NCBI GenBank assembly: GCA_947642555.1
Contig: CANRSX010000005.1
Location: 124,001-188,000 of the forward strand
Source of the DNA: an uncultured Roseburia sp.
GTDB lineage: Bacteria > Bacillota > Clostridia > Lachnospirales > Lachnospiraceae
Direction: 5' to 3'
Length of the DNA: 64,000 bases
Of this stretch, positions 32,054-62,955 are shown one piece after another. The position numbers and the translations under genes are program-made. The notes under the pieces were generated by a model, which saw only the letters and a program-made list of their open reading frames with translations, was not told the DNA's origin and did not search any database. Position 1 is the first letter of the stretch. Each line of letters opens with the position of its first letter.

Positions 32054-33730
32054 TTATGCCCCGCAGAGCGGCCGCACCGCATCGTACAGCCTGGCATATC
32101 TCTGATATACCTCCATGTATGCCTCATGGATCTTCTGCCTCGGCTCATAGGTCTCTCTCTTTTCCACCATACGGCCGGCCGCATCGAAAAGATCCGCAAA
32201 AACGCCGACCGCAATCCCGGTGAGCATCGCGCTTCCGGCCGTCCCGGCGTCAACTGTAGAAAGAGCTGTAATCGGAATTCCCAGCACATCCGCCTTCATC
32301 TGCATCCAGACCTTCGAGCGTGCTCCGCCGCCGGTTGCGTGCAGGCGCGTAAACCGGACCCCCGACCCCTTCAGCTTCTCATAATTCAGGTACATCTCGT
32401 ATGCCACACCCTCCATACAGCCGCGGTAGAGATCCGCAGCCGTCGTCTGGACGGTAAGTCCGATTACCGCCCCTTCTGACCCGGTATCCATATACGGCGT
32501 CGCCGCTCCCGCAAAATGCGGAAGCACCAGAAGCCCGGAAGGGCCCGCCGCAATCTCTGGCGAATCCCCCGCTTCCTCACGCTCCCTCTCATACTGCTGT
32601 TCCAAATACGCGTTCACGGAGATCCCGGCCGTTTTGGCCGTCTCCTTTTCTTTCTTCGCGACCGTATCCACGCACCATTGCAGCAGCGCGCCGCCCGTAT
32701 AGGAAAACGCATACGCCACATAAGTTCCGGGAACGACATAGGGTACCACGGAAAAATATCCCTCATACATCGCATCCATATCCGGCAGGCTCTCATAGAC
32801 CGGCGTCAGACACTGCACGGTTCCCGCTCCGTCCACCGCAGCGGAGGCATCAAAAGCCCCGGCTCCGACGGCCGCGGCCACCTGGTCATGCCCCACAGAT
32901 ACTATGATTGTCTTCTCGCTTAGTCCGGTCCTCTCCGCGGCCAAAGCCGTCACCGGGCCCGCGGCTGTCCCGGGCCGTACCGGCTCCGAAAAAAACCCCG
33001 GATCGATCCCGGCGGCACGAAGAACCTCCTGACTCCAGCTCAGGGAACGGATATCAAACGCCATTGTCCGCGACGCGAGCGAGTCGTCGATCTGCGCCTT
33101 CCCGGTCAGATGCCAGACGACGAAATCCTCCATCAGAAAGACATGCTCTGCCCTTGCGAAAAGCCCCGGCTCATGCGCCTTCACCCACATAAGCTTCGGA
33201 AGGCTGTACATCTCGTGCGGCCGCAGCCCGGTCACCGCGGCAATCCGGCGCGCCCCGTCCTCCATGCTCCCGGCTGCCGTTCTCCCGACCGCCATTCTCA
33301 CGCCTGCCTGTTCTTCGGCCTCCATTCTCACGGCCGCCTCCGCCCCGTCCTCCATGCTCCCGGCTGCCGTTCTCCCGACCGCCTCCGTCTCCCCCTCCGC
33401 GAATGCCTGTGCCAGCTCCCGGCACTCCTCCGCTCCCCTGGGGTCCGTGTAGAGCATCGCCGGGCGAAGCGGATTTCCCGCCTCGTCCGTCAGCACAAAC
33501 GTCTCCCCGAAGCTTGTCACGCCGATCCCCGCAAGATCCTGCGCGCCTGCCGCGGCCTCCCGGATCACCTCATACACTGCCTCCATCAGCACGGAGACGT
33601 CAATCTCATGCGCTCCGACGGCCCGCCGCACCGGATAGTCCCGGTACGCGCGCCGCAGATAGGTTCCATCCTCGTCAAAGACCGTACATTTACAGCCGGT
33701 CGTCCCGATATCCAGCCCCGCTATCTTCAT
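32054..33730 (-). CDS. FGGY-family carbohydrate kinase with repeat insertion
   Basis: 558-residue ATP-dependent sugar kinase of the xylulokinase/rhamnulokinase class, a little longer than the usual 490-510. N-terminal phosphate site GLDIGTTGCKCTVFD; DPRG near 97-99; DDSLASRTMAFD; the VSVGHDQVAAAVGAGAFD and ATGGGARSKVWMQMKADV segments are in place. Residues about 112-160 contain an unusual insertion in which VGRTAAGSMEDGA occurs twice, 30 residues apart, encoded by a 90-bp duplication. GGAGGGGATG precedes the ATG. It follows the isomerase, so it most likely phosphorylates the ketose the isomerase makes. Confidence 0.85.
   Translation of the reverse strand: MKIAGLDIGTTGCKCTVFDEDGTYLRRAYRDYPVRRAVGAHEIDVSVLMEAVYEVIREAAAGAQDLAGIGVTSFGETFVLTDEAGNPLRPAMLYTDPRGAEECRELAQAFAEGETEAVGRTAAGSMEDGAEAAVRMEAEEQAGVRMAVGRTAAGSMEDGARRIAAVTGLRPHEMYSLPKLMWVKAHEPGLFARAEHVFLMEDFVVWHLTGKAQIDDSLASRTMAFDIRSLSWSQEVLRAAGIDPGFFSEPVRPGTAAGPVTALAAERTGLSEKTIIVSVGHDQVAAAVGAGAFDASAAVDGAGTVQCLTPVYESLPDMDAMYEGYFSVVPYVVPGTYVAYAFSYTGGALLQWCVDTVAKKEKETAKTAGISVNAYLEQQYEREREEAGDSPEIAAGPSGLLVLPHFAGAATPYMDTGSEGAVIGLTVQTTAADLYRGCMEGVAYEMYLNYEKLKGSGVRFTRLHATGGGARSKVWMQMKADVLGIPITALSTVDAGTAGSAMLTGIAVGVFADLFDAAGRMVEKRETYEPRQKIHEAYMEVYQRYARLYDAVRPLCGA
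33251..33383 (-). repeat. In-frame duplication inside the FGGY kinase gene
   Basis: Positions 33251-33293 recur at 33341-33383 as identical stretches, 90 bp apart. The DNA between (33294-33340) contains further shorter echoes (CCATTCTCACG twice). Confidence 0.88.
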
Positions 33731-33751
33731 TCCGCCATCCCCTCCTTTCCC

Positions 33752-33790
33752 GCCGGCTGCGCTCTCCCGCTTTCATCCCACGCAGCCGGC
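33752..33790 (-). other. Intergenic hairpin between isomerase and kinase genes
   Basis: Perfect 10-bp arms GCCGGCTGCG (33752-33761) and CGCAGCCGGC (33781-33790) with a 19-base loop, in the 81-base gap. There is no T tract on the operon strand, so it more likely sets relative expression or protects mRNA ends than terminates. Confidence 0.5.
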
Positions 33791-33811
33791 TGTTGTTTTT
33801 CCGCGGCGCCG

Positions 33812-35215
33812 TCAGTCGATCTCCACCCACTCGTATCCGAGGTACGTGGTAAACGCCTCCTTTAAAATCTCTTTCCTATGTCCGGCCCCGACCGACGTGT
33901 GATGCTTGAACCCGCCGCGCGCCAGCCGGATCAGCTTCGCTTCCATATCCGGGATCTCGCACACGCCGCCGCATCCGAAGAACGCCTCCTCGATCGGATC
34001 GTCGGTAAACGCCGCCTCACTCGCATAGACGAAGATCTTCCCATCCTTCGTCTGACAGTTCGAGAGCGTCACCTTCCCCGGACGGATCCGGCCCTCGCAG
34101 GTACCGCAGCCGCTTCCCGCATCCGTCTTGTCAAACATTTTATGGCTGGTCACCCTTCCCTGATCCGTCATCAGTGATTTCGGCACCGGCCCGCAGTGGA
34201 ACAGAATCACCTTATTTTCTTCTTCCCCGTAATTATTGTTCCAGTCGAGCACTGTCGTCGGCGTTTCGCTGGCAAGCGCCATCGCGCGCATCGTAACCGC
34301 GGAACACATGTCGATCTCACAGGACGCCGCGATCCCCCTGTCGTTTAACTCCGAGAGCAGCACGCACGGACAGACGCGCAGGATCTCCTCCATCTCGTTC
34401 CAGCAGCGCAGTGCGAGGGCATCCAGGTGGTAAACCTCTATGTATTCGTCGATGACAACCGAGATCTTCGCCAAAGTATTTTTCTTCTCCTCCGGCACCG
34501 CTGAAAAATCGGAGTACGCCTCGAGGGCCGCCTTCTTCTCCACAACCTTCGCATCCTCATCCGAAAGCTTTCCTACCTTAAAGACCAGCTCCGACAGGTC
34601 GAAGGACTCCACATTGATTCCGTATTTCTGCAGCGCGATCTCGTCAAAACGCACGGTCTTAAACGCCGTCGTCCGCGCGCCGATGCAGCCGATATTACAG
34701 CGCTTCATGCCGTTCACGACACGGCAGATGGCCGCGAAATCCTTAAGATTTTCCTGAAACTTCGGCGATAACGGGTGCACGACATGCGGCTTTAACACGG
34801 TAAAGGGCACCCCGTACTGGGTAAACACATCGGTCACGGAAAATTTGCCGCAGAACGCATCCCTGCGGTGTGCAAAATCCATCTTTCCGATCTCGTCCGG
34901 ATAAGCCTGCATCAGGATCGGCACGCCCGCATCCTGCAACGCCGTGATCGCCCCGTTCTCGTCCGCAAAGATCGGCATGGAAAAGATCACGCCGTCGTAC
35001 TCCCCCTCGTGCTCCTTTAACCATTTCGCATATAAAAGACCCTCATCCCTGGTCTCGATGCCGCCAAACCGGGTCAGCTTTGCGTCCATGGCGATATAGT
35101 CATATCCCGCGTCCGTGACCGCCTTTACCATGTCCTCCCGCGCGCCGTAGATCAGCTCCCCCGGCATAAATCCCCTGTTGCAGAACGCCAGTGCAAATGT
35201 CATTTTCTTTCCCAT
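33812..35215 (-). CDS. L-fucose/arabinose isomerase-family protein
   Basis: 467 residues of the COG2407-type isomerase family, which also includes sulfoquinovose isomerase. Likely metal ligands by position: Glu in SCEIDMCSAVTMRAM, Asp in VLDWNNNYGEEENK and His in GGFKHHTSVGAGHRK. Begins TFALAFCNRGFMPGELI. Placed between the class II aldolase and the FGGY kinase, it should convert an aldose to the ketose that is then phosphorylated and cleaved. The substrate cannot be fixed from the sequence: L-fucose use normally pairs with a FucA aldolase, absent here. Confidence 0.75.
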   Translation of the reverse strand: MGKKMTFALAFCNRGFMPGELIYGAREDMVKAVTDAGYDYIAMDAKLTRFGGIETRDEGLLYAKWLKEHEGEYDGVIFSMPIFADENGAITALQDAGVPILMQAYPDEIGKMDFAHRRDAFCGKFSVTDVFTQYGVPFTVLKPHVVHPLSPKFQENLKDFAAICRVVNGMKRCNIGCIGARTTAFKTVRFDEIALQKYGINVESFDLSELVFKVGKLSDEDAKVVEKKAALEAYSDFSAVPEEKKNTLAKISVVIDEYIEVYHLDALALRCWNEMEEILRVCPCVLLSELNDRGIAASCEIDMCSAVTMRAMALASETPTTVLDWNNNYGEEENKVILFHCGPVPKSLMTDQGRVTSHKMFDKTDAGSGCGTCEGRIRPGKVTLSNCQTKDGKIFVYASEAAFTDDPIEEAFFGCGGVCEIPDMEAKLIRLARGGFKHHTSVGAGHRKEILKEAFTTYLGYEWVEID

Positions 35216-35271
35216 TTTACATATTCTCCTTCCTGTCCCGGTTCCTTCTGGCCAGCGGCCTTTCGATCCTG

Positions 35272-36138
35272 CTACTCCATGCAGGCAAACATGTTCATCG
35301 CCCGCTTCACGTTTTCCTTCATCGCATCCCTTCCCGCCATCGCAATGGAAGAAAAGAATACCGGCTCCCCCTCCTGCAGGGATGCGAGGTACTGTGCCGC
35401 TGCGTTACCGCCGGCTTTATCCATATAGGTGAAATAATTGATCTTGCGCACGCCGGCCTCAATCGCCTTCCGGTAATCCATTGGGCTGACGCCGGAACCT
35501 CCGTGCATGACGACCGGGATATTGTCGTTTAACTCCCGCACGCGGCGCACCACGTCAAAATCAAGCTTCGGCTCCGTCAGGTAGATCCCGTGCGTCGTCC
35601 CGAACGAGCAGGCCAGCGCGTCGATCCCGGAATCCGCCACAAAGCTCTGTGCCAGTTCTGGATCCGTATAGATCTTTGTCTCGTCCGCCGCCCCGGTGTC
35701 GTCTCCCGCGCCGGATTCCCGCCTGCCCATCGAGCCGAGCTCCGCCTCCACGGAAGCGCCGGTCGCCTTCGCCATCGCGACGGCCCGCTTCGTATTCGCG
35801 AGATTTTCCTCATAGGAAAGCACGGATCCGTCGTACATGATCCCGGTAAAGCCGATCGCAAGCGCCTGCTGTAAATACTCCAGTGTCTCGCCGTGGTCTA
35901 AGTGCACGCATACCGGCACGTCCGCCCGCTTTGCGGCCTCCACCATAACAGGCCCGATCACGGAAAGCGGGATCCACGGCTCATGGCACTGCGCAAACTG
36001 GATGATCACCGGCAGGGAAAGCTCCTCCGCCGCTCTGATGACAGCCTCCAGGCTCTCTAAATTCGGCGTGTTAAACGAGCCGATGGCAATCTTCCTCTCC
36101 TCCGCAATTTTCATGACATCATTTAGTGTCGCTAACAT
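35272..36138 (-). CDS. Class II fructose-bisphosphate/tagatose-type aldolase family protein
   Basis: 288-residue zinc-dependent aldolase. Catalytic Asp and zinc His in CVHLDHGETLEYL; zinc and phosphate motifs EAELGSMG, SFGTTHGIY, VVMHGGSGV and the GVRKINYFTYMD end are present. Length fits the FBA/GatY/KbaY group. It lies upstream of the isomerase in the same operon, so it probably cleaves the ketose phosphate to dihydroxyacetone phosphate plus an aldehyde. Whether the substrate is a 1-phosphate or a bisphosphate is open. Confidence 0.86.
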   Translation of the reverse strand: MLATLNDVMKIAEERKIAIGSFNTPNLESLEAVIRAAEELSLPVIIQFAQCHEPWIPLSVIGPVMVEAAKRADVPVCVHLDHGETLEYLQQALAIGFTGIMYDGSVLSYEENLANTKRAVAMAKATGASVEAELGSMGRRESGAGDDTGAADETKIYTDPELAQSFVADSGIDALACSFGTTHGIYLTEPKLDFDVVRRVRELNDNIPVVMHGGSGVSPMDYRKAIEAGVRKINYFTYMDKAGGNAAAQYLASLQEGEPVFFSSIAMAGRDAMKENVKRAMNMFACME

Positions 36139-36149
36139 ATAACTCCTCC

Positions 36150-36573
36150 TTATTTTCTTAAGTTCAGATATAATATTTCACCTTCACTCAGTCCCATCTG
36201 CACCTGATCCGCCAGCCCGAAATTCGGACTCGACACGGTAACGTGGATCAGTCCCCGCCGGTATGCGTACTCGTTCGCCTCCTCTATCCGCTGATGCGTC
36301 CAGTTCGAACCGCCGAAGGCTCCGATCTTCCCCTCCGCGTGCAACGCGTTCATGACCTCCACCGGCACCGCCACGTCCACATCCGGGTCGTCCCGGCACA
36401 AAAGATAAATGTCGATATAATTTTTTCCCAGTGTCAAAGGCTGTGATCCCCAGCTCCAGCACCGCATCCAGCAGCGCGTCATCCTCGCCTCCCGTCAGAA
36501 ACGGCGGCATCGCCGTCCCGAACAGAATCCCTGACACCGGCTTTTCCACATACGGGATCTGCGCGTACTTCAT
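36150..36573 (-). pseudogene. Decayed aldo/keto reductase gene
   Basis: The 5' frame gives the AKR start MKYAQIPYVEKPVSGILFGTA..DAVLELGITAFDT. The reading then moves to another frame with NYIDIYLLCRDDPDVDV, HAEGKIGAFGGSNWTHQRI and TVSSPNFGLADQVQ, ending early. Intact relatives carry about 60 residues, including the catalytic Tyr and Lys, between FDT and DYIDIYLL, and about 100 more after FGLADQV. Both are lost. It is the first gene of the sugar operon, 11 bases before the aldolase. Confidence 0.8.
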
Positions 36574-36666
36574 CTTTCCTTCTATCTATCGCCCACCTTC
36601 CTTTCTGGCTACCTCTATCCTACCCCGTTTCAGGGCGCATTTATATAGGCTTCTGTTCTTTTTACT

Positions 36667-36694
36667 TTGAATTTGTTCGCGCGGATGCTATAAT
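36667..36694 (+). promoter_or_regulatory. Promoter of the PocR-AraC regulator
   Basis: TTGAAT (36667-36672), 16 bases, TATAAT (36689-36694), with an extended TGC before the -10. ATG at 36718 after GAGGAGAG. Confidence 0.7.
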
Positions 36695-36717
36695 GTACAA
36701 AACGAGGAGAGACTGCC

Positions 36718-37587
36718 ATGATATCCAGCTTTGACCTGACGAAATTAAATGCGCTGCTGCGGGATTTTCACAATCTCACGCAGATCCGCATCACCATTTT
36801 TGACGACGAATTCCGCGAGCTCGCCGCATATCCCGACGAACCGCCCCTCTTCTGCCGGCTGATCCGCTCCGTCCCGGCAGGTGAAAACGAGTGCCGCTGC
36901 TGTGACCGCGCGGCCTGCGCGATCGCCGCGAAGCGGCGGACAAACTACACATACCAGTGCCATGCCGGACTGACCGAGAGCATCTCCCCGATTATCCTCG
37001 GGAATCTGACCATCGGCTACCTGCTGTTCGGCCATGTCTTTTCCTACGACTCGCACGAAGCGGGCTGGGAGGTGATGAAAACGCTCTGTGCGCCTTACGG
37101 GCCGGACTTTACAGAGCTTTGGGCCGCGTGCCGGCTCATGCCTGTCATCTCCCCGGACTATATCGCATCCGCCTCCCACATCTTACAGGCAGTCGCCTCC
37201 TGGCTTTGCATGGAGCGCATGGTCGCGCTGCGCCATCAGGAGCTCCCGGCACAGATCGACGACTGGCTGTCCGCGCATTTTACAGAGGAGATCGACGCCG
37301 CATCGCTCGCCAGAAGATTCGGGATCGGCAAAACGCAGCTTTACGCGATCGCAAAACAGAGCTACGGGACCGGCATCGCAGAGCATATCCGCACGCTGCG
37401 CATAGAAAAAGCCAGGAAGCTGCTGGATGAACAGGCAGATCTCTCCCTGGCTGAAATCGCATATCAATGCGGTTTTAAAGACTATAATTATTTTATCACG
37501 GTATTCGGCCGCATGACGGGCCTTCCCCCGAAGGCATATCAGAACCGCTGCCGGCTTACAGATACGTATACAGCTCCTCCCAGATAA
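36718..37587 (+). CDS. AraC-family regulator with PocR sensory domain
   Basis: 289 residues. The N-terminal PocR domain (about 1-165) has LLRDFHNLTQIRITIFD, the cysteine cluster ENECRCCDRAAC, YQCHAGLTESISPIIL and GYLLFGHVF. The C-terminal AraC double helix-turn-helix (about 182-280) has EEIDAASLARRFGIGKTQLY and GFKDYNYFITVFGRMTGLPP. PocR domains are predicted to bind small hydrocarbon derivatives, with a possible metal at the cysteines. It is divergent from the aldolase/isomerase/kinase operon, which it probably controls. Its end overlaps the convergent ligase gene by 32 bases. Confidence 0.88.
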   Translation: MISSFDLTKLNALLRDFHNLTQIRITIFDDEFRELAAYPDEPPLFCRLIRSVPAGENECRCCDRAACAIAAKRRTNYTYQCHAGLTESISPIILGNLTIGYLLFGHVFSYDSHEAGWEVMKTLCAPYGPDFTELWAACRLMPVISPDYIASASHILQAVASWLCMERMVALRHQELPAQIDDWLSAHFTEEIDAASLARRFGIGKTQLYAIAKQSYGTGIAEHIRTLRIEKARKLLDEQADLSLAEIAYQCGFKDYNYFITVFGRMTGLPPKAYQNRCRLTDTYTAPPR

Positions 37588-39037
37588 CCTTCCCGAGCTC
37601 GTCGCGCGGAATGTGATCCACGAACCGGATGTCGCGCGGCTGCTGATAGTCCGAAAGGCTCTCAAGGCACCGTTTCTTCACGGCCTTTAAATCGACCCGG
37701 TTGTCCGCGGCGACCGCGACGCCGACGACCTCGCCTAAGATATCGTCGCGAATGGGATACGCCACGCATTCCCTCACGCCGTCTAACTTCCGGATCTCAG
37801 ATTCGATATCGCCCGGAAAAATATTCACACCGCCCGAGATGATGATCTTCTTTTTTCTCCCGGCGTAGTGCAGAACTCCTTCCCCGTCCAGGTACCCCAG
37901 ATCCCCGGTTCCGAAAAAGCCGTCCTCCCGTATGCTTCCGACCTTTGTCCCGCCGACATAATACCCGTCGAATACGGTCTCGCCACGGCAGAAAATCTCT
38001 CCCACCTCACCTGTCCCGGCAGGGATTCCGTCGTTTTCGATCCGGATCTCAGCCTGGCTCACCGGAAGTCCTGCAACGTCGTCCGCCGCCGATTCGTCCC
38101 CCAGATCCGCGATCGCGATGAATTCCGTCTCGGATGATGCTAACAGATTATAAAAATGGCATCTGCCCGGCAGGATCTCCCTGATACCGTCCCGCACCTC
38201 CGGCTCCAGCCGGGCTGCGGTGGAGACAAGCTGCCGCATGGAAGAAAATCCATCCTCCGGCAGATCGTTGTCCTCCATATAGCGCAGGACCTGCGCCAGC
38301 TGCGCGGGCGTGCTGATCGTATAGGTGATCTGATATGTCCCGATCATACTGACCCACTTCTCCGCGGTAAACCCTCTCATGATCACAAGCTGGTTTCCGG
38401 TATATGCGCCGGTCAGAATCATCCTGGTCCCAAGCGCGTGACACAGCGGCGTAGAAATCAGCATCCTGTCCTCACCGGACAGCCGGAACTGATCCTCCTC
38501 CTCTAAAATCCGCGCGATCATCTGCCTCTGCGTCAGAATGACAGCCTTGGGCTCCGCCGTGGAACCGGAAGTCGTCATCATCAGAAACGGCTCATCCAGG
38601 CAGACATCGTCCACGCCGGACACATCCTTTGCCTGCTCCTTCCATATCTCATCCGCGCGCTTCATCAGGTAATACGGCGTATTCAGCCTGCCGGCCTCCC
38701 GCCTGTTATGGGAATCCACCACAAAATACGAAACCTGCATCCGTTCCTCGCAGCGCTTTATCACTTCACCGGGCCAGTGCGGATGAAACGGAATGACCAG
38801 CGCTCCCAGCTTTACAAGCGCCAGAAACGCCGACGCATAAGACGCACTGTCCGAAATCAGAATCCCGACATGCATCCCGGGCACGACATGTTCCTTGAGC
38901 TGGCCGGCAAGCGCATTGACATAACCTGATATCTCAAGGCGGGTCCAGGTTCTGTGCTCATCGATTAAAAGTACTGCCTCAGGGCTCTCCTTTACCAGCG
39001 ATTCAAATCTGTGAACGATATTCTGTGTCTGATCCAT
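37556..39037 (-). CDS. Class I adenylate-forming acyl/aryl-CoA ligase
   Basis: 493-residue AMP-dependent synthetase. P-loop-like MMTTSGSTAEPK (A3), the YNLLASSETEF-type A5 segment, GTGDLGYLDGEGVLHYAGR (A7-A8) with the hinge RKKKIIISGGVNIFPGDIE, and the catalytic lysine region DELGKVIWEEL near the end. I start at 39037 (MDQTQNIVHR) after AAGGAGGACAGA. No carrier protein or modification gene adjoins it, so an acyl-CoA ligase or stand-alone acid-activating enzyme are both possible. It is not linked to the sugar operon and ends against the PocR regulator. Confidence 0.82.
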   Translation of the reverse strand: MDQTQNIVHRFESLVKESPEAVLLIDEHRTWTRLEISGYVNALAGQLKEHVVPGMHVGILISDSASYASAFLALVKLGALVIPFHPHWPGEVIKRCEERMQVSYFVVDSHNRREAGRLNTPYYLMKRADEIWKEQAKDVSGVDDVCLDEPFLMMTTSGSTAEPKAVILTQRQMIARILEEEDQFRLSGEDRMLISTPLCHALGTRMILTGAYTGNQLVIMRGFTAEKWVSMIGTYQITYTISTPAQLAQVLRYMEDNDLPEDGFSSMRQLVSTAARLEPEVRDGIREILPGRCHFYNLLASSETEFIAIADLGDESAADDVAGLPVSQAEIRIENDGIPAGTGEVGEIFCRGETVFDGYYVGGTKVGSIREDGFFGTGDLGYLDGEGVLHYAGRKKKIIISGGVNIFPGDIESEIRKLDGVRECVAYPIRDDILGEVVGVAVAADNRVDLKAVKKRCLESLSDYQQPRDIRFVDHIPRDELGKVIWEELYTYL

Positions 39038-39203
39038 TCTGTCCTCCTTTTCCGTCAATCCAAAATCAACACACCGCTGAACGTTTCATCAAGTATCTTA
39101 GCATCTTTCGCATATCCCGTCAATTCCCATGCCGCGTTCCATCACGCTTTTTTCGCGCCTGCATATACTATCGGTAACTGCTGAAAAAGGAACGGCAAAC
39201 GCT

Positions 39204-41051: not shown

Positions 41052-41099
41052 TGCCGGGCGGCAGGAGGCCGCAGCCCGCAGGCCGCCGCAGACCGCGGG

Positions 41100-42311: not shown

Positions 42312-42325
42312 CCGTTCTCCTCCTT

Positions 42326-43252: not shown

Positions 43253-43267
43253 TCCTGCCTCCTGTCT

Positions 43268-50445: not shown

Positions 50446-50477
50446 CTCACGCCTCCTTCCGGTCGTATTATGTCAAA

Positions 50478-50500: not shown

Positions 50501-50519
50501 CTATTTACTCTTTGTCAGA

Positions 50520-50699
50520 TTAATCCTGCGGAATAATCTCTTTTTTATTATAAGAGCCGCAGTTTTTGCACACTCTGTGCGGGATCATGAGCTCTCCGCA
50601 TTTGCTGCACTTTACCAGCGTCGGAGCGGTCATTTTCCAGTTCGCTCTTCTTCTATCTCTTCTTCCCTTGGAAGATTTGTTCTTCGGACAGATTGACAT
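50520..50699 (-). CDS. rpmF: Ribosomal protein L32
   Basis: 59 residues: starts MSICPKNKSSKGRRDRRRAN, followed by the zinc ribbon CSKCGE and CKNCGSYNKKEII. GGAGGTG lies upstream of the ATG at 50699, which follows the yceD stop by only 3 bases. L32 is a small 50S protein. The yceD-rpmF pairing is conserved across bacteria. The cysteine-containing (zinc-binding) form is present rather than the zinc-free paralogue. Confidence 0.95.
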   Translation of the reverse strand: MSICPKNKSSKGRRDRRRANWKMTAPTLVKCSKCGELMIPHRVCKNCGSYNKKEIIPQD

Positions 50700-50702
50700 T
50701 TC

Positions 50703-51317: not shown

Positions 51318-51421
51318 GGCTCTCTCCTTCACCGCGGCGCAAATCCTGATACAAGCGAAAGATTTACACCTAGACAATTATACATACGCCGGTTTTGTTT
51401 GTCAACACAAAATTCTCTAAA

Positions 51422-51447
51422 GTTCAGCCATTCTCTGCGGGCTGAAC
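51422..51447 (-). terminator. Possible terminator of ackA
   Basis: GTTCAGCC/GGCTGAAC with a 10-base loop, followed on the minus strand by TTTAGAGAATTTT. A second GC-rich pair, CCGGGC/GCCCGG, lies between it and ackA. Confidence 0.45.
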
Positions 51448-51489
51448 GGATCCGGGCCATCCTCTGCGGGATGTGCGAATCATGCCCGG

Positions 51490-52680: not shown

Positions 52681-52840
52681 AATCATTCTCTCCTTTTCTT
52701 CGCGCGGGCTTCATCCGGACGGCATTTCTGCCCCGGCAGCGTACCGACACGCCCTCTCCCGCATATATGCATTCAGTATACGCCAGATTTTTCCTGTATA
52801 CAAGCCCTTTCTTCTGATATTTCCCATAGCCGCATAACGG

Positions 52841-54208: not shown

Positions 54209-54414
54209 TTCCTGCCTCCCCTGTAAAGCATCGCGCCGTTTACGTCTCCGGCCATGTTCCATGTCGCGCTTCTTTTTCAGGCCGTTATCCCGTAGCTTAC
54301 TCCTTCCTGAGAGAAAGCGCAAGAGCCTTTTGATTCAAAGTGGCATTTTGTGAAAAAAGGGGGTATAATAGGTAACAACCCACCATAGAAGACTTATTTT
54401 TTGCAGGAGGCTCC

Positions 54415-55962
54415 ATGAAAACGGTCGGAATCATCGCAGAATACAATCCGTTCCACAACGGCCATGCCTGTCAGATCGCAGAGGTCCGCAGGCGGACGCA
54501 GGCGGATTATATCGTTGTCGCCATGAGCGGCGATTTCGTCCAGCGCGGCGCGCCTGCCATTTTGGACAAGCACACGCGCGCGCGCATGGCGCTCGCCTGC
54601 GGCGCGGATCTGATCCTCGAGCTGCCGGTGCTCTGGGCGACCGCCTCCGCCGAGGATTTTGCGGCGGCGGGCGTCCTGCTGCTCTCCTCGACGGGCTGTG
54701 TGGACACCCTCTGTTTTGGCGCGGAGACCGCCGACCTTCCGCTGTTATCCTCTGTCGCGGATCTCCTCACAGAGGAGCCGCCCTTATTCCGTGAAACGCT
54801 TGCCTTTGGCTTAAAAAAAGGGATGAGCTTCCCCGCGGCGCGCCAGGCTGCCGTCGCGGCCTGTATGGCATCTTACAGGGCTGCGGACGATGTCAGTACA
54901 AGTCCGTGTATCGGCACCTCGGAGGAAACGGAACGGACGGCAGGCTGCGGGACAGACCTTCACGCGGACACAGAGCAGATCGCCGCCGTTCTCGGCAGCC
55001 CCAATAATATCCTGGCCGTCGAGTATCTGAAGGCGATCAGAAGATACCGGCTGCCCCTTCAGCCGCTTGTGCTGGAACGCAAAGGGGCGGCCTATCACGA
55101 TGAAAAGATTCATGCGGCAGACAGCGCGGCGCGGCAGGACGGCGGCGATGGAGCCGTGGGCGCTCCGGCGGCCTCCGCCTCCGCAATCCGGCAGCTCCTG
55201 CTCTCCCACCGGGCAGAGATTTCTCAGGCCTCCGCTTCCCTGGCCGCCGGGCATGGCGACACACCCTCCGCTTCCCTGGCTGCCGGGCATGACGACACAC
55301 CCTCCGCTTCCCTGGCCGCCGGGATGCTCCCCGCACACATCGCGCGGCAGCTCGCAGTCTCCATGCCGCAGCCGGCGCTCGCGCTCCTCACGGAAGCGCT
55401 GCGCGAAAAGCCACTGCTTCATGCCGACGATTTTTCCGCCCTGACCGGTTACCGGCTTCTTGGCGCCGGCGCCCGGGAGCTTTCCGGGGTCGCAGGCAGC
55501 ACGGAGGCGATCGCCAACCGTCTGTACCGGCAGAAGTATCAGTTTACGTCCGTTTCCTCGTTTCTGTCAGAGAACCGGACCCGTGAGATCACCTACACCC
55601 GTCTCGCCAGGATCCTGCTGCATCTGACGCTCGGCCTCACAAAACAGGACGAGGCGGCCGGGCGGGATACCGGCTATATCTCCTGGCTGCGCATCCTCGG
55701 CTTCCGAAGGGACTGCGCCCCGCTGCTTTCGCAGCTGAAGCGCAGCGCCTCTGTCCCGGTCCTCACAAAGCTCTCCGACGCGGACCGCATCCTGCCGCCG
55801 GATGCCTGCGCGCGTCTGAATATGGATCTTTTCGCGGGGGAGCTTTACCGCCAGACGCAGGAGATAATATCCGCGGCTGACAACACCGTACCCCGTACTT
55901 TCCACAAAAAAAGGCCGCGATCGCTCAGCGAGCTCTCACAGCCTGTGGTGATTGTACCGTAA
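54415..55962 (+). CDS. tmcAL: tRNA(Met) cytidine acetate ligase TmcAL, with repeat insertion
   Basis: 515 residues against the usual 390-420. It acetylates the wobble cytidine of elongator tRNA(Met) using acetate and ATP. Nucleotidyltransferase motifs IIAEYNPFHNGH (HNGH at 14-17), AMSGDFVQRGAPAILDKHTRA, ADLILELPVLWATASAEDFA and GSPNNILAVEYLKA are intact. Residues about 160-185 and 236-303 are extra. The latter contains three copies of a 12-residue unit beginning SASLAAGH, encoded by 36-bp DNA repeats, and then the conserved part resumes. GCAGGAGGCTCC precedes the ATG. In Firmicutes it is commonly near yceD-rpmF, as here. Its acetate use fits the nearby ackA. Confidence 0.9.
   Translation: MKTVGIIAEYNPFHNGHACQIAEVRRRTQADYIVVAMSGDFVQRGAPAILDKHTRARMALACGADLILELPVLWATASAEDFAAAGVLLLSSTGCVDTLCFGAETADLPLLSSVADLLTEEPPLFRETLAFGLKKGMSFPAARQAAVAACMASYRAADDVSTSPCIGTSEETERTAGCGTDLHADTEQIAAVLGSPNNILAVEYLKAIRRYRLPLQPLVLERKGAAYHDEKIHAADSAARQDGGDGAVGAPAASASAIRQLLLSHRAEISQASASLAAGHGDTPSASLAAGHDDTPSASLAAGMLPAHIARQLAVSMPQPALALLTEALREKPLLHADDFSALTGYRLLGAGARELSGVAGSTEAIANRLYRQKYQFTSVSSFLSENRTREITYTRLARILLHLTLGLTKQDEAAGRDTGYISWLRILGFRRDCAPLLSQLKRSASVPVLTKLSDADRILPPDACARLNMDLFAGELYRQTQEIISAADNTVPRTFHKKRPRSLSELSQPVVIVP
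55231..55323 (+). repeat. 36-bp tandem repeat inside tmcAL
   Basis: Units begin at 55231, 55267 and 55303 (TCCGCTTCCCTGGC...), the last partial; they differ at only a few bases. The period is a multiple of three, so the frame is kept. Confidence 0.9.
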
Positions 55963-55995
55963 TCCGGGATGTCCGCCCGCCCCGCGGATGCCCCG

Positions 55996-56961
55996 TCATT
56001 CCTCATCCAGCCACCGCGCCGCATCCAGCGCGTGGTAGGTAATGATCATCTTTGCCCCGGCGCGCCGGATCCCCAGCAGGATCTCCATCACGATGCGCTT
56101 CTCGTCAATCCAGCCGTTTGCGGCAGCCGCCTTTACCATGGCGTATTCCCCGCTGACATTATAAGCGGCCAGCGGATAATCCGTGCGGTCAGCGACCTCG
56201 CGGATCACATCCAGGTAGGCAAGCGCCGGCTTTACCATAATGATATCCGCGCCTTCCTCCATATCCGCCATACACTCGCGGATCGCCTCTTTCCGGTTCG
56301 CCGGATCCATCTGATAGGTCTTCCGGTCGCCAAAGCCCGGCGCGGAGTGCGCGGCCTCGCGGAACGGCCCGTAAAAGCCGGAGGCAAACTTCGCGCTGTA
56401 GGCCATGATCATTCTGTTCTGAAAGCCGTTCTGGTCGAGGGCCTCGCGGATCGCCGCCACCCTCCCGTCCATCATATCGGACGGCGCGAGGATATCCGCT
56501 CCCGCCGCGGCAAGGCTCACCGCCATCTTTGCCAGAAGCGGCAGCGTCTCGTCATTTAAAATCTCCTCCCCGCACACAAGGCCGCAGTGTCCGTGTGAAG
56601 TATACTCGCACAGACAGATGTCGGCAATCACCAGAAGCTCCGGATACGCTGCCTTAATATGGCGGATCGCACGCTGCGTCACCCCGTTATCGTTATAAGC
56701 CTCGCTGCCCGTCTCATCCTTGTGCGCCGGGATGCCGAAGATCAGCACCGCCGTCACGCCGGCAGCGAGGACGCGCGTAAGCTCCTCATCCATCCGGTCG
56801 ATCGAGTACTGGCAGATCCCCGGCATGGACTCGACCGGATTTACAAGATTCTCCCCCTCTGTGACAAACATCGGATAAATCAGATCCCGTTTGTCCAGCC
56901 GTGTCTCCCGGACCATACCGCGCACGGCCTCATTCACGCGCAGACGTCTCATTCGCTTCAT
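55996..56961 (-). CDS. hemB: Porphobilinogen synthase (delta-aminolevulinic acid dehydratase)
   Basis: 321 residues. It joins two 5-aminolevulinate molecules into porphobilinogen. Schiff-base lysines lie in [14 protein letters not shown] and [12 protein letters not shown]; metal-site region [16 protein letters not shown]-terminal [15 protein letters not shown] start at 56961 ([10 protein letters not shown]), which overlaps the acetyltransferase stop as ATGA, with GGAGGGGAAAATAGA upstream. The other tetrapyrrole genes are 3 kb upstream, past the GNAT, DUF3021, LytTR and hemerythrin genes. Confidence 0.95.
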
Positions 56962-57554
56962 TCTATTTTCCCCTCCTGCTTTTCTTTTCCCTGTCTGCAG
57001 GCGGAATCTGCCGCGGCCTGCGCCGGACATTCTTCCCGAATGCCGTACACATGCCGGTACAGCGTCCCCCGCACCTGCAAAAATTCCGAACCGGCAAGTC
57101 TGCCGGGACGCGACATCAGAAGCAGGGGGATCTCCCCTCCCGCCTCCGACAGCGCGGGCTGGACATAATAATAAGCGTTCAGGGAAAACCCGTTCCGCTT
57201 ATAAAAGCCGATCCGGCGCGCGGTGAGCGTATCCGCCGGCGGTTCCACCTCCAGCACAACGGGCTTCTCCCGAAGCCCGCACACCCACTCCAGAAGCGCG
57301 GCCCCCGTTCCGGCGTTTCGCAGAAGGGGATCCACCGCAAGATGCTCTACAAACATAAGTTCCGGCAGCTTCCACACAGCGGCAAACGCTCTCATCCCGC
57401 CCTCCCGCCGGATCCCGTACAGCCGGTAATACGGATTTAACAATAGCTGCCGCTGCCCTTCCCGCGTCCTGCGCTCATCGATCGGAAAACTCTCCTCCAT
57501 CAGGCGCCATACCTGTGCAAAATCCTGTTCTGTCAGTCTCTCTGGCCTCTCCAT
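56958..57554 (-). CDS. GNAT-family N-acetyltransferase
   Basis: 198 residues. The acetyl-CoA fold is seen as [20 protein letters not shown] and [15 protein letters not shown] (the RxxGxG/A loop varied to RNAGTG), then [27 protein letters not shown]. Start at 57554 ([10 protein letters not shown]) after GAAGGAGGG. It overlaps hemB by 4 bases, so both are translated in a coupled way, though no functional link to tetrapyrroles is known. Substrate unknown. Confidence 0.85.
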
Positions 57555-57589
57555 ATGCCCTCCCTTCTGCCCACGCACAAGTATAACGC

Positions 57590-58042
57590 TTATTCCTCGT
57601 CCTGTCCATGCTTCTTTTGCCGCTGCCCGAGCAGACCGCCGTATTTTTTCCCGGTCACGCGGTATAAGATCTCAAATCCTGCCGTCATTGCCGCAAAAAT
57701 CACGAAAAAGATGAGAAGAAAGATTCCCCAGCTCATCAGATTGTCCGCCGGGAACCAGCCGAACGCCCATGCCGCAAGAGCAAGAACCGGCAGAAACATC
57801 ACCACAAACAGCAGCATGCGCTTCGTATACGCCATATTCCGTATCAGCCAGTCCTCCGAAAACGCAATCCCCTGCAGCAGGACGCTGACCGCCGAGACCG
57901 CCAGAAGCTCCAGCAGGATCTCCATCCCGACGGAGCGCTCCCCGTACAGCCACGCAATCGCCGTATAGATACACACCGCAGCGGTAAACACCATGCACGC
58001 ATGGTTTTTCCATTCCACAACACCCTTTAAAAATCGTTTCAT
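57590..58042 (-). CDS. DUF3021-family membrane protein
   Basis: 150 residues with four hydrophobic segments (about 15-33, 42-62, 76-97, 103-127) and a basic C-terminal tail. DUF3021 proteins are typically encoded directly after a LytTR-domain DNA-binding protein, as here (17-base gap). In related LytTR regulatory systems the membrane partner holds the regulator inactive until a signal is received. By analogy this is a candidate anti-regulator; direct evidence is lacking. Confidence 0.84.
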   Translation of the reverse strand: MKRFLKGVVEWKNHACMVFTAAVCIYTAIAWLYGERSVGMEILLELLAVSAVSVLLQGIAFSEDWLIRNMAYTKRMLLFVVMFLPVLALAAWAFGWFPADNLMSWGIFLLIFFVIFAAMTAGFEILYRVTGKKYGGLLGQRQKKHGQDEE

Positions 58043-58059
58043 CCCTGTTCCCCTTTCTT

Positions 58060-58500
58060 TTACCGGATCCCCAGTTTTTCCTTCAGCGCCGGCGCATACT
58101 GTTTCGACACAGATAGTTTTTCCCCGTTGTTCATGACAAGGAGCAGTCTCCCTCCGAGATCCGGACGCAGGGAGCGGATCTGATTAAAATTCACGATCAC
58201 GGATTTTGACGCGCGGAAAAAATCCTCTCCCGCCAGGCGCTCCTCCAGCTCATACAGCTTAAACGGCGTCTCATACACGCTGTCCTTTGTGTAAAAAAAC
58301 GTCTTTCGGTCCACGGTGTCAATGTAGAGAATCCTGCGCGCCTCCAAAAGCCAGGTCTCCCCGTCTTTCATCCCCGTGATCTTCTGATCATACATCCGCA
58401 TCTGCGCGACCATTTTCAGCAGCGAATCATTTACCTTTGCGCAGCGAATGATGATCTCTGTCTCCTCGCATCCGGCGACTTCCATAATTTCTATTTTCAT
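58060..58500 (-). CDS. LytTR-family DNA-binding regulator
   Basis: 146 residues. A short N-terminal part with IEIMEVAGCEETEIIIRCAK is followed by a LytTR domain (about 48-145) with ARRILYIDTVDRKTFFYTKD, EERLAGEDFFRASKSVIVNF and NQIRSLRPDLGGRLLLVMNN. There is no receiver domain, so it is not a classical response regulator. Start at 58500 (MKIEIMEVAG) after GGAGA. Forms a two-gene unit with the DUF3021 gene. Such pairs usually activate their own operon. Confidence 0.86.
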   Translation of the reverse strand: MKIEIMEVAGCEETEIIIRCAKVNDSLLKMVAQMRMYDQKITGMKDGETWLLEARRILYIDTVDRKTFFYTKDSVYETPFKLYELEERLAGEDFFRASKSVIVNFNQIRSLRPDLGGRLLLVMNNGEKLSVSKQYAPALKEKLGIR

Positions 58501-58570
58501 GCTGATCTCCATTCCGATTCGGATACCGGTTATCCATAATCCGTACATTCCTGTACTGGATAAAGTATAA

Positions 58571-58613
58571 GAAAAAAAGAAACGGGCAGCAAGCGTTTTT
58601 GCGCAAGCTGCCC
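58571..58613 (-). terminator. Rho-independent terminator of the hemerythrin gene
   Basis: GGGCAGC (58584-58590) pairs with GCTGCCC (58607-58613), extended by partial pairing inside. On the minus strand it is followed by TTTCTTTTTTTC. Confidence 0.72.
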
Positions 58614-58644
58614 CACAGAGCGTATCACCTGACTGTCACAGGTC

Positions 58645-59520
58645 CTATTTATTCACACAGATCGCAAACGGTCCGTACTGCGTCTCAAAAAGGATGCTGC
58701 AGTAGGGATTGGCCACATTCATGCCGGCAAGAAATTTCTTTTCGTCCAGCAGCGCCTCCTTCTCCAGCCGGCAGACGCCCACATTCTGAAAAAACATCCC
58801 GATATGCTCGAGTAAATGCCGCGCGATCTGCCTGGTCGCGTACAGTACGATATTGTCAATCTTATCGAACGGCACGCCCGGCATCTCACTGACCGTGTGC
58901 AGCACAAGCTGCTCGTTGAGCAGAAATGTCACCAGAAACCGTTCTCCCCGGTCCGAGCGGTACACCAGGCAGTAATAGACGCCCGGCCCGAACTCATCCA
59001 CCTCATAGTGCATGCTGGCAATCTTTACCTGCAGTGCAAACAGATCCTTTAACACTTCCGACACTGCTTCCGCAAAATCCTCCACGTTCTTCAGCCTGTC
59101 CGGCGGCGTAAAGGCATCGCCCTTTTCCCTCGTAATATTGCGGTCCTCCATCATGATATGACCGGTCAGCCATCCGATGCAGAATCCGACAAAATGCTGA
59201 ACCGCCTCGGAGGAATACCCCGTCTCGCCCAGCTCCTTCTCATATGCCGGAAGCTGCACCTCGCGCATATCATCGTGAATCTTCTTATGCTTCTCATACC
59301 CGTCATATCCGCACTGCCTCATATAAGCTTCCTCTTCCGCAAAGTGCTTTAACGTGTAATTCTTCAGATACTTGACGCTCTCCTCACAGGCCCATTGGCT
59401 GCGCTGCTCATCCCCACTCAGCAAAACCAGTCTGCGCACAAGTGCAAACAGTTTCTGATGTGCGGAATCGATCACCGCAACCCCAACCCGGTATCGGTCG
59501 TCCCATGCTACTCCATCCAT
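58645..59520 (-). CDS. Bacteriohemerythrin fused to a CheX-like domain
   Basis: 291 residues. The N-terminal hemerythrin domain (about 1-130) keeps the di-iron ligand pattern: IDSAHQKLFALV (His), HFAEEEAYMRQCGYDGYEKH (HxxxE and H), KKIHDD and GWLTGHIMMED. The C-terminal half (about 150-291) resembles CheX/CheC-like folds (FAEAVSEVLKDLFALQVKI ... ILFETQYGPFAICVN) but the CheX catalytic ExxN pair is not evident. Start at 59520 (MDGVAWDDRY) after AGGGGG. It probably binds oxygen or senses redox state. Own promoter and terminator make it monocistronic. Confidence 0.8.
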   Translation of the reverse strand: MDGVAWDDRYRVGVAVIDSAHQKLFALVRRLVLLSGDEQRSQWACEESVKYLKNYTLKHFAEEEAYMRQCGYDGYEKHKKIHDDMREVQLPAYEKELGETGYSSEAVQHFVGFCIGWLTGHIMMEDRNITREKGDAFTPPDRLKNVEDFAEAVSEVLKDLFALQVKIASMHYEVDEFGPGVYYCLVYRSDRGERFLVTFLLNEQLVLHTVSEMPGVPFDKIDNIVLYATRQIARHLLEHIGMFFQNVGVCRLEKEALLDEKKFLAGMNVANPYCSILFETQYGPFAICVNK

Positions 59521-59578
59521 CTGTCTGGCCCCCTGTTCCATCGAAATCTGATTTTCCGGTCTCTGACCGGATTAAATT

Positions 59579-59607
59579 ATTATATGCGAAATTTCGGCCT
59601 CTGTCTA
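59579..59607 (-). promoter_or_regulatory. Promoter of the hemerythrin gene
   Basis: Minus-strand TAGACA (59607-59602), 17 bases, TATAAT (59584-59579). The start codon is at 59520. The -35 lies just beyond the cobA-hemD stop. Confidence 0.65.
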
Positions 59608-59636
59608 CTATAAAACAGACAAAAACTTCCATTTTC

Positions 59637-61157
59637 TCATAATGCGACAATCCGTTCCGCCATTCCTTCGACAGAAGCCTCCCCTGCCACAATCACCCGG
59701 ACCGCCGCGCTTTCCTGCGCCGTCAGTTCCTTTGTCAGCGCCTGCCCGGCCGTCTCCCCGATGCAGTAACAGACGCTGCCCGCCGGAATCCGTTTCCCCG
59801 CTTTTGCCGTCTCTTCCAGGAAAGCCCGCACACCCGAGGCGCTGAAAAAGGCAAATTCCGAAAGTCCGGACAGCTCCGAAAAACCGGCGCACGCTTCTCC
59901 TTTCACATCATAGACCGGGATCTCATGCACCTGGCATCCCGCCCGTGCAAGAAGCTCGCCCAAAACGGGATTTCCCTGCGCCGCGCGGGGAATCAGCACG
60001 CGGGCTTTGGCATATTTTTCCGCAAATTCCTCCCCAAAACCTTCCGCATCCGCCCGTTCTGGCATAAAATCGGCGCGGATCCCATACTCCCTCAGCGCGG
60101 CGGCCGTTCCCTTCCCGATCACGCTGAAACGGATCCCCGCAAAGCCGCGGGCGTCCGCGCCGCAGGCATCCGCTGTCCCGAAAAAGACCCCGACCGCCTC
60201 CTTACTGGTGAAAAGCACCCAGTCATACTCCCGGATGCGCGATAACACCCCGGGCAGCTGTCCTGCTTCCGCGGTCCGCACCCTCCGCATTTTTATAAGC
60301 GGCACCACCTCGCAGGCAGTTCCTTTCAGCGCGCTGCAAAGCTTTGACAGCGTCCGTTCCGTGGCCACCGCGCCGCACCGGCGCACACCGGCATCCGCGT
60401 TCTGCCCGAAGGAGAGCGCCGCCACATCCCCGATCACGATCACCGCCGGCGAGGTGAGGCCGGCCTGCTTCACGCGTGAGGCAATGTCGGAAAGTACGCC
60501 GCGCACCGCCCGCTGCCCGGCCGTCGTCCCCTCCGAGATCACCGCAGCCGGCGTATCCGCAGGCTTGCCGTAAAAGATCAGCCGCTCCGTAATCTGTGCA
60601 AGGCTCGAAAGTCCCATCAGAAAAACCAGCGTGCCGTCAAGGCGCGCAAACGTCTCATAGCCGCCGGTCAGGGTATCCGTCTCCTCGCCGCAGACGCCGT
60701 CGTCTCCCCGTATCTGCGCGGTGTGCCCGGTGATGACATGGAAGCTCCTCGCCAGCCCTCTGTGGGTCACAGGGATCCCCGCCAGCTCCGGCACGGCAAC
60801 CGCCGATGTGACGCCCGGCACCAGCTCAAAGGGAATCCCGGCGCGGCGAAGCGCCTCCGCCTCCTCCCCGCCCCTGCCAAAGACAAACGGATCCCCGCCT
60901 TTTAGGCGCACCACCTTCGGATAAGCCCTTCCGTACTCCACCAGGATCCGGCAGATCTCCTCCTGCTTCATGGTGTGCGCGCCGGGCCGCTTGCCCACGC
61001 AGATGCGGATGCAGTCGTCCCGCGTAAAGGAGAGCAGCTCCTCTGAGGCCAGCCGGTCATAGAGGACGACGTCGCACTCTTTTAGTTTTTTCATTCCTTT
61101 TACTGTAATCAGCCCCGAATCCCCCGGACCGGCGCCGACCAGCGCAACGATTCCCAT
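59637..61157 (-). CDS. Fused uroporphyrinogen-III C-methyltransferase and uroporphyrinogen-III synthase
   Basis: 506 residues. Residues about 1-245 are CobA/SUMT: VALVGAGPGDSGLITVKG, VVLYDRLASEELL, VRLKGGDPFVFGRGGEEAEA, PGVTSAVAVPELAGIPVTHR and LVFLMGLSSL. Residues about 260-506 are HemD: VVPLIKMRRV, WVLFTSKEAVGVFF, IGKGTAAALREYGI and FFSASGVRAFLEE. The enzyme closes hydroxymethylbilane to uroporphyrinogen III and methylates it to precorrin-2 for siroheme or cobalamin. Start at 61157, one base after the stop of the upstream fusion gene, with GGAGGG inside that gene's end. The CobA-HemD fusion is well known in Clostridia. Confidence 0.93.
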   Translation of the reverse strand: MGIVALVGAGPGDSGLITVKGMKKLKECDVVLYDRLASEELLSFTRDDCIRICVGKRPGAHTMKQEEICRILVEYGRAYPKVVRLKGGDPFVFGRGGEEAEALRRAGIPFELVPGVTSAVAVPELAGIPVTHRGLARSFHVITGHTAQIRGDDGVCGEETDTLTGGYETFARLDGTLVFLMGLSSLAQITERLIFYGKPADTPAAVISEGTTAGQRAVRGVLSDIASRVKQAGLTSPAVIVIGDVAALSFGQNADAGVRRCGAVATERTLSKLCSALKGTACEVVPLIKMRRVRTAEAGQLPGVLSRIREYDWVLFTSKEAVGVFFGTADACGADARGFAGIRFSVIGKGTAAALREYGIRADFMPERADAEGFGEEFAEKYAKARVLIPRAAQGNPVLGELLARAGCQVHEIPVYDVKGEACAGFSELSGLSEFAFFSASGVRAFLEETAKAGKRIPAGSVCYCIGETAGQALTKELTAQESAAVRVIVAGEASVEGMAERIVAL

Positions 61158-61158
61158 G

Positions 61159-62955
61159 CTATCCCTCCGTGATCTCCTGCACCAGCCTCTTTGCCAGCGC
61201 ATGCCAGTCCTCTGCCGGCGCGCTGCCCCCGACGCGGCGGATCACGCCGTCCCGCTCCCTCATGAGAGAGATCTGCATCTGCGCCGCGCAGGGTTCCTCC
61301 TCCGCCGCAGCGCTGTCTCCTCCTCCGGCACGCGATACGTCATTTGCCGTCACCTCTCCGGTACACGATGCGTCATTTGCCGTCATCTCTCCGGTACACG
61401 ATGCGTCATTTGCCGTGTCTCCTCTGCCGGCACAGAATGCGTCATCCGCGCTGCATCTGGCGTAGACGCCCACCGCCTCGTGACAGCCCGCGCCCAGCAT
61501 TTTCAGGATTTCCCGCTCCGCAGAGAGCTCCCGCGCGGCGCGCCTGTCCGTCACGGCGAAAAGATCCTGCCCGCCGCGTTTTCCCTCAACGGCGATAAAT
61601 GCCTGTCCGCCGGCCGGCGTCATGAACGCTGTGTCAAGATAAGTATATTCCAGTTCCCGGTCTGAAAGAAGTCCAAGGCGCGATAAACCCGCGGCCGCGA
61701 GAATGATCCCGTCATATTCTCCGTTTTTTAATTTCTCCAGACGGGTGGTGATATTCCCGCGCAGCGGCCGTATCAGCGCGTGCGGGTATCGCTCCAGAAA
61801 CTGTGCCCGGCGGCGCAGGCTTCCGGTTCCGATCACGGCGGCGTCCGATTCGCGAATCGTCCTGCCCGCCTTTGTGACAAGCACGTCCCGGACATCCGCA
61901 CGCGGCAGCACACAGACAATGTCAAGGCCGTCGGAAAGCTCAGACGGCATATCCTTTGCGGAATGTACGGCGTAATCGATGACGCCGTTCTGGATCGCCT
62001 CCTCAAACTCCGTCACAAACACCGCTTTGCCGCCGAATTCCGACAGCGGCTTGTTCTGGATCTTATCCCCGGTCGTTTTAATTACAACTGTCTCGCAGAT
62101 GATATCCGGGTACGCATCCTTAAGACGCTGCACAAACAGCTCTGTCTGGGCGAGCGCCAGCCGGCTTCCTCTCGTGCCGATGCGGATCCGCGCCGGCACA
62201 CGGACCGCCCTTTCTTCCGCCGCTTTTTCTTCCGGCGCCGCTTCCTCTCCCGCTTTGCCGCCGGTTTTTGCAGACTCTGCGGCTATCATATCGTCCACCT
62301 CCTGTCCGGTCAGCTCCTCTCCGCGAAGCGCCGCGTCCAGCATCCGTTCAAAAACGTTTTTTCTCGCTGCGGCGGACGTCACTTTTTCTTTCACATAGTC
62401 CCGCCAGCCGCCCATTGCTGCCGCGACATGGCCGTACCCCGCAAAACGCTCTCCGGATACCCGGCCTTCCTTCGTCTTCCCAAAAGCTTCGCCGCCCCCT
62501 GACAGCAGTCCGTCGAGAAGCTGTCTGCGCAGTCTGGCGGCCAGCGCCGGGCTCGTCCCCCCGGTAGACGCCGAGACGACCACCTCCCCGTCCTTTGCGA
62601 CCGCCGGGAAAAAGAAGGTGCACAGCTCCTTTTCGTCCACCACGTTGACCGGGATCCGCCGCGATCTGCACCACTCCGAGACCGCGCGGTTGACCGGCTG
62701 GTCGTCTGTGGCTGCCACTACAAGCGCAATGCCGGCAGAGGCCGGGTCTTCCCCGGTCCCTGCCGGCCGCTTCTCCCAGATCAGCTGCCCGGCCTGCTCC
62801 AGCTCCGTCAGTCCCGCGGTAAGCTTTGGCGAGACCACCGTAACCGCCGCGCCGAATTCTATGAGCTGCCGTACTTTTCTCTCCGCGACATTCCCGCCGC
62901 CCACGACAACGCATTTTTGATCCGTCAGATCTACACACATCGGAAAATATGCCAT
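61159..62955 (-). CDS. hemC: Fused precorrin-2 dehydrogenase and hydroxymethylbilane synthase
   Basis: 598 residues. Residues 1-about 165 are Met8/SirC-like (NAD site VVVGGGNVAERKV at 16-28, VNVVDEKELCTFFFPAVA, STGGTSPALAARLR), oxidising precorrin-2 to sirohydrochlorin. Residues about 256-598 are HemC (IGTRGSRLALAQT, HSAKDMPSE, GTGSLRRRAQ, LRGNITTRLEKL), polymerising porphobilinogen. The dipyrromethane Cys491 is in GAGCHEAVGVYA. Residues about 501-555 hold an inserted tandem repeat (TANDASCTGE units). AGGGTG precedes the ATG. Followed by cobA-hemD with a one-base gap. Together they run from porphobilinogen to sirohydrochlorin. Confidence 0.9.
   Translation of the reverse strand: MAYFPMCVDLTDQKCVVVGGGNVAERKVRQLIEFGAAVTVVSPKLTAGLTELEQAGQLIWEKRPAGTGEDPASAGIALVVAATDDQPVNRAVSEWCRSRRIPVNVVDEKELCTFFFPAVAKDGEVVVSASTGGTSPALAARLRRQLLDGLLSGGGEAFGKTKEGRVSGERFAGYGHVAAAMGGWRDYVKEKVTSAAARKNVFERMLDAALRGEELTGQEVDDMIAAESAKTGGKAGEEAAPEEKAAEERAVRVPARIRIGTRGSRLALAQTELFVQRLKDAYPDIICETVVIKTTGDKIQNKPLSEFGGKAVFVTEFEEAIQNGVIDYAVHSAKDMPSELSDGLDIVCVLPRADVRDVLVTKAGRTIRESDAAVIGTGSLRRRAQFLERYPHALIRPLRGNITTRLEKLKNGEYDGIILAAAGLSRLGLLSDRELEYTYLDTAFMTPAGGQAFIAVEGKRGGQDLFAVTDRRAARELSAEREILKMLGAGCHEAVGVYARCSADDAFCAGRGDTANDASCTGEMTANDASCTGEVTANDVSRAGGGDSAAAEEEPCAAQMQISLMRERDGVIRRVGGSAPAEDWHALAKRLVQEITEG
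61338..61450 (-). repeat. 33-bp tandem repeat inside the hemC part
   Basis: CGTCATTTGCCGT begins at 61338, 61371 and 61404 with the same 33-base period; a degenerate fourth unit starts at 61440. Each encodes 11 residues, so the frame is kept. Confidence 0.9.

Follow-up and report, generated by a model that had tools for sequence, protein, structure and literature searches.

In-frame tandem repeat arrays within three conserved enzymes of an uncultured Roseburia species

Introduction

Tandem repeats inside bacterial genes are mostly discussed for surface proteins and for on/off switches. Bacterial coding repeats, their origin by slippage and their use as switches are already well described in the excerpts cited here (PMC3899988, PMC2639597). 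In Legionella pneumophila, for instance, 26 intragenic tandem repeats are reported genome-wide, 7 of them polymorphic between strains (PMC2639597, excerpt), while compositional order has been described in 6240 (3.3%) of the 187740 bacterial enzymes in Swiss-Prot (PMC3836704, excerpt). Outside bacteria, the low-complexity insertions of Plasmodium make proteins longer than their homologs through hydrophilic inserts within globular domains, and these inserts sit in variable regions thought to be surface loops (PMC2705789, excerpt). Here we analyze a 64,000-nucleotide stretch (the window) of an uncultured Roseburia sp. (assembly GCA_947642555.1, contig CANRSX010000005.1, positions 124,001 to 188,000), in which three unrelated enzymes, an FGGY-family sugar kinase, the tRNA acetate ligase family member TmcAL and a CysG-HemC fusion, each carry a tandem array in frame. 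In the open-licence literature, we found no paper on such enzyme-loop arrays in this bacterial group.

The arrays described below share with the Plasmodium insertions a protein that outgrows its homologs through a hydrophilic insert in a globular domain. They differ in being minisatellites of 33-90 bp, rich in A/G/S/T/D/E, where the excerpt on Plasmodium describes asparagine runs (PMC2705789), and in having a bacterial host with 53-55% G+C. We regard the Plasmodium insertions as the apparent closest parallel, of which the present case would be a bacterial variant. With L. pneumophila the common point is the occurrence of in-gene tandem repeats in a bacterial genome; in contrast to what that excerpt describes (PMC2639597), several of our arrays sit within, and interrupt, conserved metabolic-enzyme domains, and they are known from interspecies comparison. 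Some lie in tetrapyrrole and tRNA-modification enzymes, which distinguishes them from the compositionally ordered enzymes as excerpted (PMC3836704). Finally, phase-variable coding repeats are likewise slippage-prone tandem repeats within genes, but they toggle between full-length and truncated products, whereas all units found here preserve the frame (PMC3899988, excerpt).

Results

Three in-frame arrays of polar residues

Tandem Repeats Finder (TRF) recovered all three arrays, at 33254-33398 (three overlapping rows), 55229-55323 and 61315-61445, and the reading frames of the three hosts run uninterrupted across them. The copies stand head to tail within an open coding frame, as expected of intragenic in-frame tandem repeats, or coding minisatellites. 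Unit lengths of 36, 33 and 15/45/90 bp are all multiples of three, and the frame is preserved. A chance origin was rejected using Markov nulls: with a period of at least 12 and a score of at least 70, TRF detected no array in any of three replicates obtained by randomising the first 400-kb sample of the window's own genome (hereafter G000) under a first-order Markov model, against 12 in the real DNA. The arrays announced in a preliminary description of this DNA are thus real, and the small, polar composition it attributed to them is borne out: the residues A, G, S, T, D, E, N, P and Q account for a fraction of 0.74-0.85 in the three inserts versus 0.57 in each host protein, and hydrophobic residues are scarce in the inserts. 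The same description had raised a possible phase-tuning role. Understood as on/off switching, this was rejected, since every unit is a multiple of three and a change in copy number cannot shift the frame.

Arrays in TmcAL arose from different units

The TmcAL gene (54415..55962, + strand; Pfam HIGH_NTase1, with solved relatives 5y0n-5y0t) contains 2.6 copies of a 36-bp unit with 94% match (55229..55323, +; TRF), encoding PSASLAAGH(G/D)DT. This array comes after a motif in which S254, A255 and R259 are invariant. An array scoring at least 100 is present in 3 of the 49 TmcAL genes compared, belonging to three species (G000, G020 and G018), and the units, and partly the loops used, differ among the three. 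The G018 gene has a 33-bp unit repeated 5.4 times in another loop, ahead of the motif, and its 74%-identical homolog in G054 is devoid of this array. In G020, the array is a 60-bp duplication (1.9 copies) of a native segment including the conserved ATAIR motif, and the 82%-identical gene of G069 holds this segment in single copy. As judged from these two sister genes, one array was demonstrably born when a native segment was duplicated in frame. Together with this sister pair, the differing units and loops indicate a separate origin of the arrays in each lineage.

The closest full-length match to the G000 TmcAL among the other genus genomes searched, "genus" being the grouping label of the genome set used, is 51% identical. 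The TmcAL proteins of the genus exceed those of other families in length (p = 1.6e-4), a comparison that used 41 of the 56 matched genus genomes, G000 included, and 8 of the 15 matched other-family genomes.

A lengthened turn in HemC

In the second host (61159..62955, - strand; NAD_binding_7 and Porphobil_deam), the N-terminal domain of CysG is fused to HemC, the hydroxymethylbilane synthase. Here, a 33-bp unit in 3.8 copies with 85% match (61315..61445, -; TRF), encoding TANDASCTGE(M/V), lengthens the turn immediately after the invariant cysteine C491, which we take to be the cofactor cysteine. The top solved match, porphobilinogen deaminase 4mlq, stops at residue 501, where the extra segment starts. 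We aligned 30 of 37 loci, the remaining 7 having matched the CysG part only. The turn has 7-8 residues in 21 of the 30 rows and 18 in two, while G000 and its six top-scoring genus homologs have 61, 40, 40, 27, 26, 17 and 11; these seven HemC-bearing genomes form what we call the G000 side of the genus, a grouping by score and not by tree. A contig scan for HemC returned seven distant relatives (best segments 37-47% identity) and no same-species strain, records of G000 itself or of a very near genome having possibly been excluded.

HemC and CobA-HemD act in one pathway, and a CobA-HemD fusion adjoins HemC in the window (59637..61202, -; array scan and homolog comparison). TRF found no array in this gene. 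Its homolog in G074 contains 2.2 copies of a 57-bp unit resembling a native C-terminal segment that is single-copy in the 54%-identical G000 protein, a looser comparison that suggests a second duplication of native sequence.

A degenerate array splits the sugar kinase domain

The sugar kinase gene (32054..33730, -; Pfam FGGY_N and FGGY_C) has xylulokinase as its top NCBIfam match, under the curated cut-off. Its FGGY_N domain is split by an insert of about 45 residues (residues 114-158; 33257..33391, -; TRF and alignment). The 90-bp unit initially described is partly upheld. Two identical 42-bp copies do lie 90 bp apart, at 33341..33382 and 33251..33292 (both -, identity verified), but there is no clean 90-bp tandem: the copies are embedded in a more diverged 15/30/45-bp array, which TRF describes as a 45-bp unit in 3.1 copies with 68% match. 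The kinase insert thus consists of degenerate 15/45-bp repeats to which a 90-bp step was added later.

Among the matches listed, the insert is missing in all 28 genus homologs covering the site, many of which are paralogs, and a 69%-identical homolog in G022 does not have it. The alignment comprised 30 rows, namely the G000 kinase, these largely paralogous 28 homologs, and one locus (L084) that stops short of the site. In the comparisons made, none of the inserts was seen to be fixed across distant genera, in line with the lineage-bound expansion proposed at the outset.

Absence of dispersed copies and bias towards frame preservation

The insert DNAs of all three genes have no further copy in their own genome. 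The best second match (20 bp, E = 0.004) consists of 20 identical bases at G000 C9:113127, inside a glycosyltransferase gene that bears its own unrelated 36-bp array, and looks like chance. A shared or mobile insert was rejected on this ground. On G000 C9, L208:11971-14079 encodes a two-domain GT2 glycosyltransferase with a 36-bp unit insert in 2.5 copies (GAPGTVRPSGEA) immediately ahead of a YTDEDK stretch.

In the G000 sample and eight genus genomes combined, the period is a multiple of three for 69 of 77 in-gene arrays and for 6 of 16 intergenic ones (Fisher p = 2.5e-5); in other families, the figures are 16 of 16 and 4 of 9. That in-gene arrays keep the frame so much more often than intergenic ones indicates that selection filters the products of slippage.

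Frequency in the genome and in the genus

In-gene arrays with a multiple-of-three period number 30 in 800 kb of G000 (3.75 per 100 kb). Eight further genomes of the genus, sampled over 800 kb, hold 39 (4.88 per 100 kb), and other families hold 16 in 787 kb (2.03 per 100 kb). The difference between the eight genus genomes and the other families is significant (p = 0.0027), with genes called crudely as the longest non-overlapping open frames, genomes within one genus not being independent and several outgroup genomes being low in G+C (0.29-0.49); 5 kb of G032 entered the outgroup sample twice through two overlapping stretches, with no array or compared gene double-counted. Scoring insertions against the reciprocal-best cross-group homolog, regardless of repeats, we observed internal insertions of at least 12 amino acids in 24 of 136 conserved proteins of the genus versus 6 of 139 of other families (p = 4e-4). 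Counted as events, insertions amount to 32 versus 6 between genus and other families, and to 10 versus 2 between G000 and other families.

The 800-kb G000 sample includes 27 further genes with in-gene arrays. We ran Pfam on 17 of them in the called frame, and additionally on two frames that were not the called gene; among the 17, 6 had no match and several others encode proteins that are exported or surface-located, solute-binding proteins among them. In the rest of the genus (20 of 43 array-bearing genes scanned), arrays lie inside or at the edge of domains in the CysG N-terminal domain (G016) and HemD (G074), and in G068 one lies between domains of RACo. The 9 of 12 scanned genes from other families yielded one array inside a domain, a weak 27-bp unit in 1.9 copies in a solute-binding protein. 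Unrelated arrays occur in further enzymes and in further species of the genus, which supports the generation or tolerance of expansions at the genus level, as initially suggested, and points to frequent in-frame loop growth by small tandem duplications in the enzymes of this lineage.

A few array-bearing genes deserve mention in their own right. A GH43 enzyme of G000 (C12, L109:460-2247) has a 36-bp unit in 2.4 copies within a 42-residue insert, and its G020 homolog has no insert. A CobW-family protein of G069 (L122:3042-4253) contains a long His/Asp/Glu-rich tandem array with a 99-bp period, possibly metal-binding, and a JetD-like (Wadjet) protein of G020 (L143:10414-11757) has an in-frame repeat with a 45-bp unit ahead of the C-terminal domain. 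In G053 (L135:7391-7635), a 35-bp unit is repeated 7.0 times with 97% match; this period is not a multiple of three, and the short open frame there is probably no gene.

Within the window itself, array-bearing genes are not unusually numerous (5 versus 2.2 expected from the sample, p = 0.07), whereas arrays in enzyme domains are (3 versus 0.16-0.24 expected, p = 0.0006-0.002), the window having been chosen post hoc. Elsewhere in the window, a collagen-like protein (12787-14193, +; Pfam Collagen) has a 63-bp unit in 3.0 copies with 98% match, a recent expansion, and an 1877-aa protein with SpaA, DUF5979 and DUF7601 domains (14952-20585, -) has a 21-bp in-frame repeat at 19959-20014.

Discussion

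We consider it likely that these arrays are coding minisatellites, generated by slippage-type duplication, shaped by selection for frame and for tolerant loops, and mostly functionless. A small piece of native sequence bordering a loop would be duplicated in tandem and in frame, either by replication slippage or by misaligned recombination between short homologies, and its copies would subsequently slip further and diverge. Because selection would purge frame-shifting or fold-disturbing arrays, the survivors would be multiples of three, polar and located in length-tolerant loops, and the genus overall would accept more such growth than related families. The frame bias, the polar inserts, the lack of dispersed copies and the presence of the mismatch repair gene MutS1 jointly favour ordinary tandem duplication with high tolerance and no dedicated function. 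From these sequence comparisons we infer both the slippage mechanism and a near-neutral effect, and the flexible loops that the arrays probably contribute would hardly affect catalysis.

A number of observations weigh against this explanation. Neither the kinase unit nor the HemC unit could be traced to native sequence, and the surface position of the inserts is one that we infer from alignments. Array density in G000 taken singly is only marginally above that of other families (p = 0.054), and three outgroup genomes reach similar in-gene densities (5.0 per 100 kb in both G030 and G032, 4.0 in G035). Internal insertions affect 5 of 56 G000 proteins, and with 12 events versus 14 in its congeners G000 is not more insertion-rich than they are. 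Arrays within domains are also few in the 800-kb G000 sample (GH43, GT2 and SpoIIIAH in the 17 genes scanned). The preliminary idea that this lineage generates or tolerates expansions thus stands for its lineage-specific loop insertions and for the enrichment of the genus, and is marginal for the genome in which it was conceived; likewise, many other genes of this genome do carry arrays, but few carry them inside an enzyme domain.

The arrays might instead be under selection. They could serve, for instance, as flexible linkers, as interaction tails or as regulatory segments that tune the enzyme through their length. Their position next to invariant motifs, after S254-A255-R259 in TmcAL and C491 in HemC, would fit such functional loops, as would the presence of TmcAL arrays in three species and of an array in both HemC and CobA-HemD, albeit in different species. 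However, species differ in array sequence, in unit length and even in which loop is used, the kinase insert is limited to one of them, and apart from polar composition we saw nothing conserved in the inserts. We therefore think functional loops unlikely as a general explanation; a selected role for some loops is possible. A more dynamic version, in which a continuing minisatellite process lengthens loops beside active sites so that loop length varies within populations and tunes output with the frame intact, is distinctly improbable in our view.

The excess of frame-preserving arrays in the genus sample could also reflect a lineage-wide mutator state, such as the loss of a repair or nuclease function raising the rate of tandem duplication. 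MutS1, the sole repair gene examined, is nevertheless present in G000 as a stop-free gene scoring above the curated cut-off, and was found in 37 of the 40 genomes searched, so that MutS loss was rejected; array rates moreover differ widely within the genus and within the outgroup. To our knowledge, mismatch repair is not expected to handle units as long as those of these arrays. We give a mutator state a small chance of being correct. In-frame inserts in several unrelated genes also recall the palindromic elements of Rickettsia, where the same element is present at several loci. Nothing of the kind was found for our three inserts, and other species have different units in TmcAL as well, which refutes a shared-sequence element and leaves a dispersed in-frame inserting element next to no credibility.

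Enzyme pairs with and without an array are at hand in TmcAL (G020 versus G069, G018 versus G054) and, more loosely, in CobA-HemD (G074 versus G000). A genus whose tetrapyrrole, tRNA-modification and sugar enzymes take up repeats in their conserved domains time after time would offer a natural experiment on protein lengthening.

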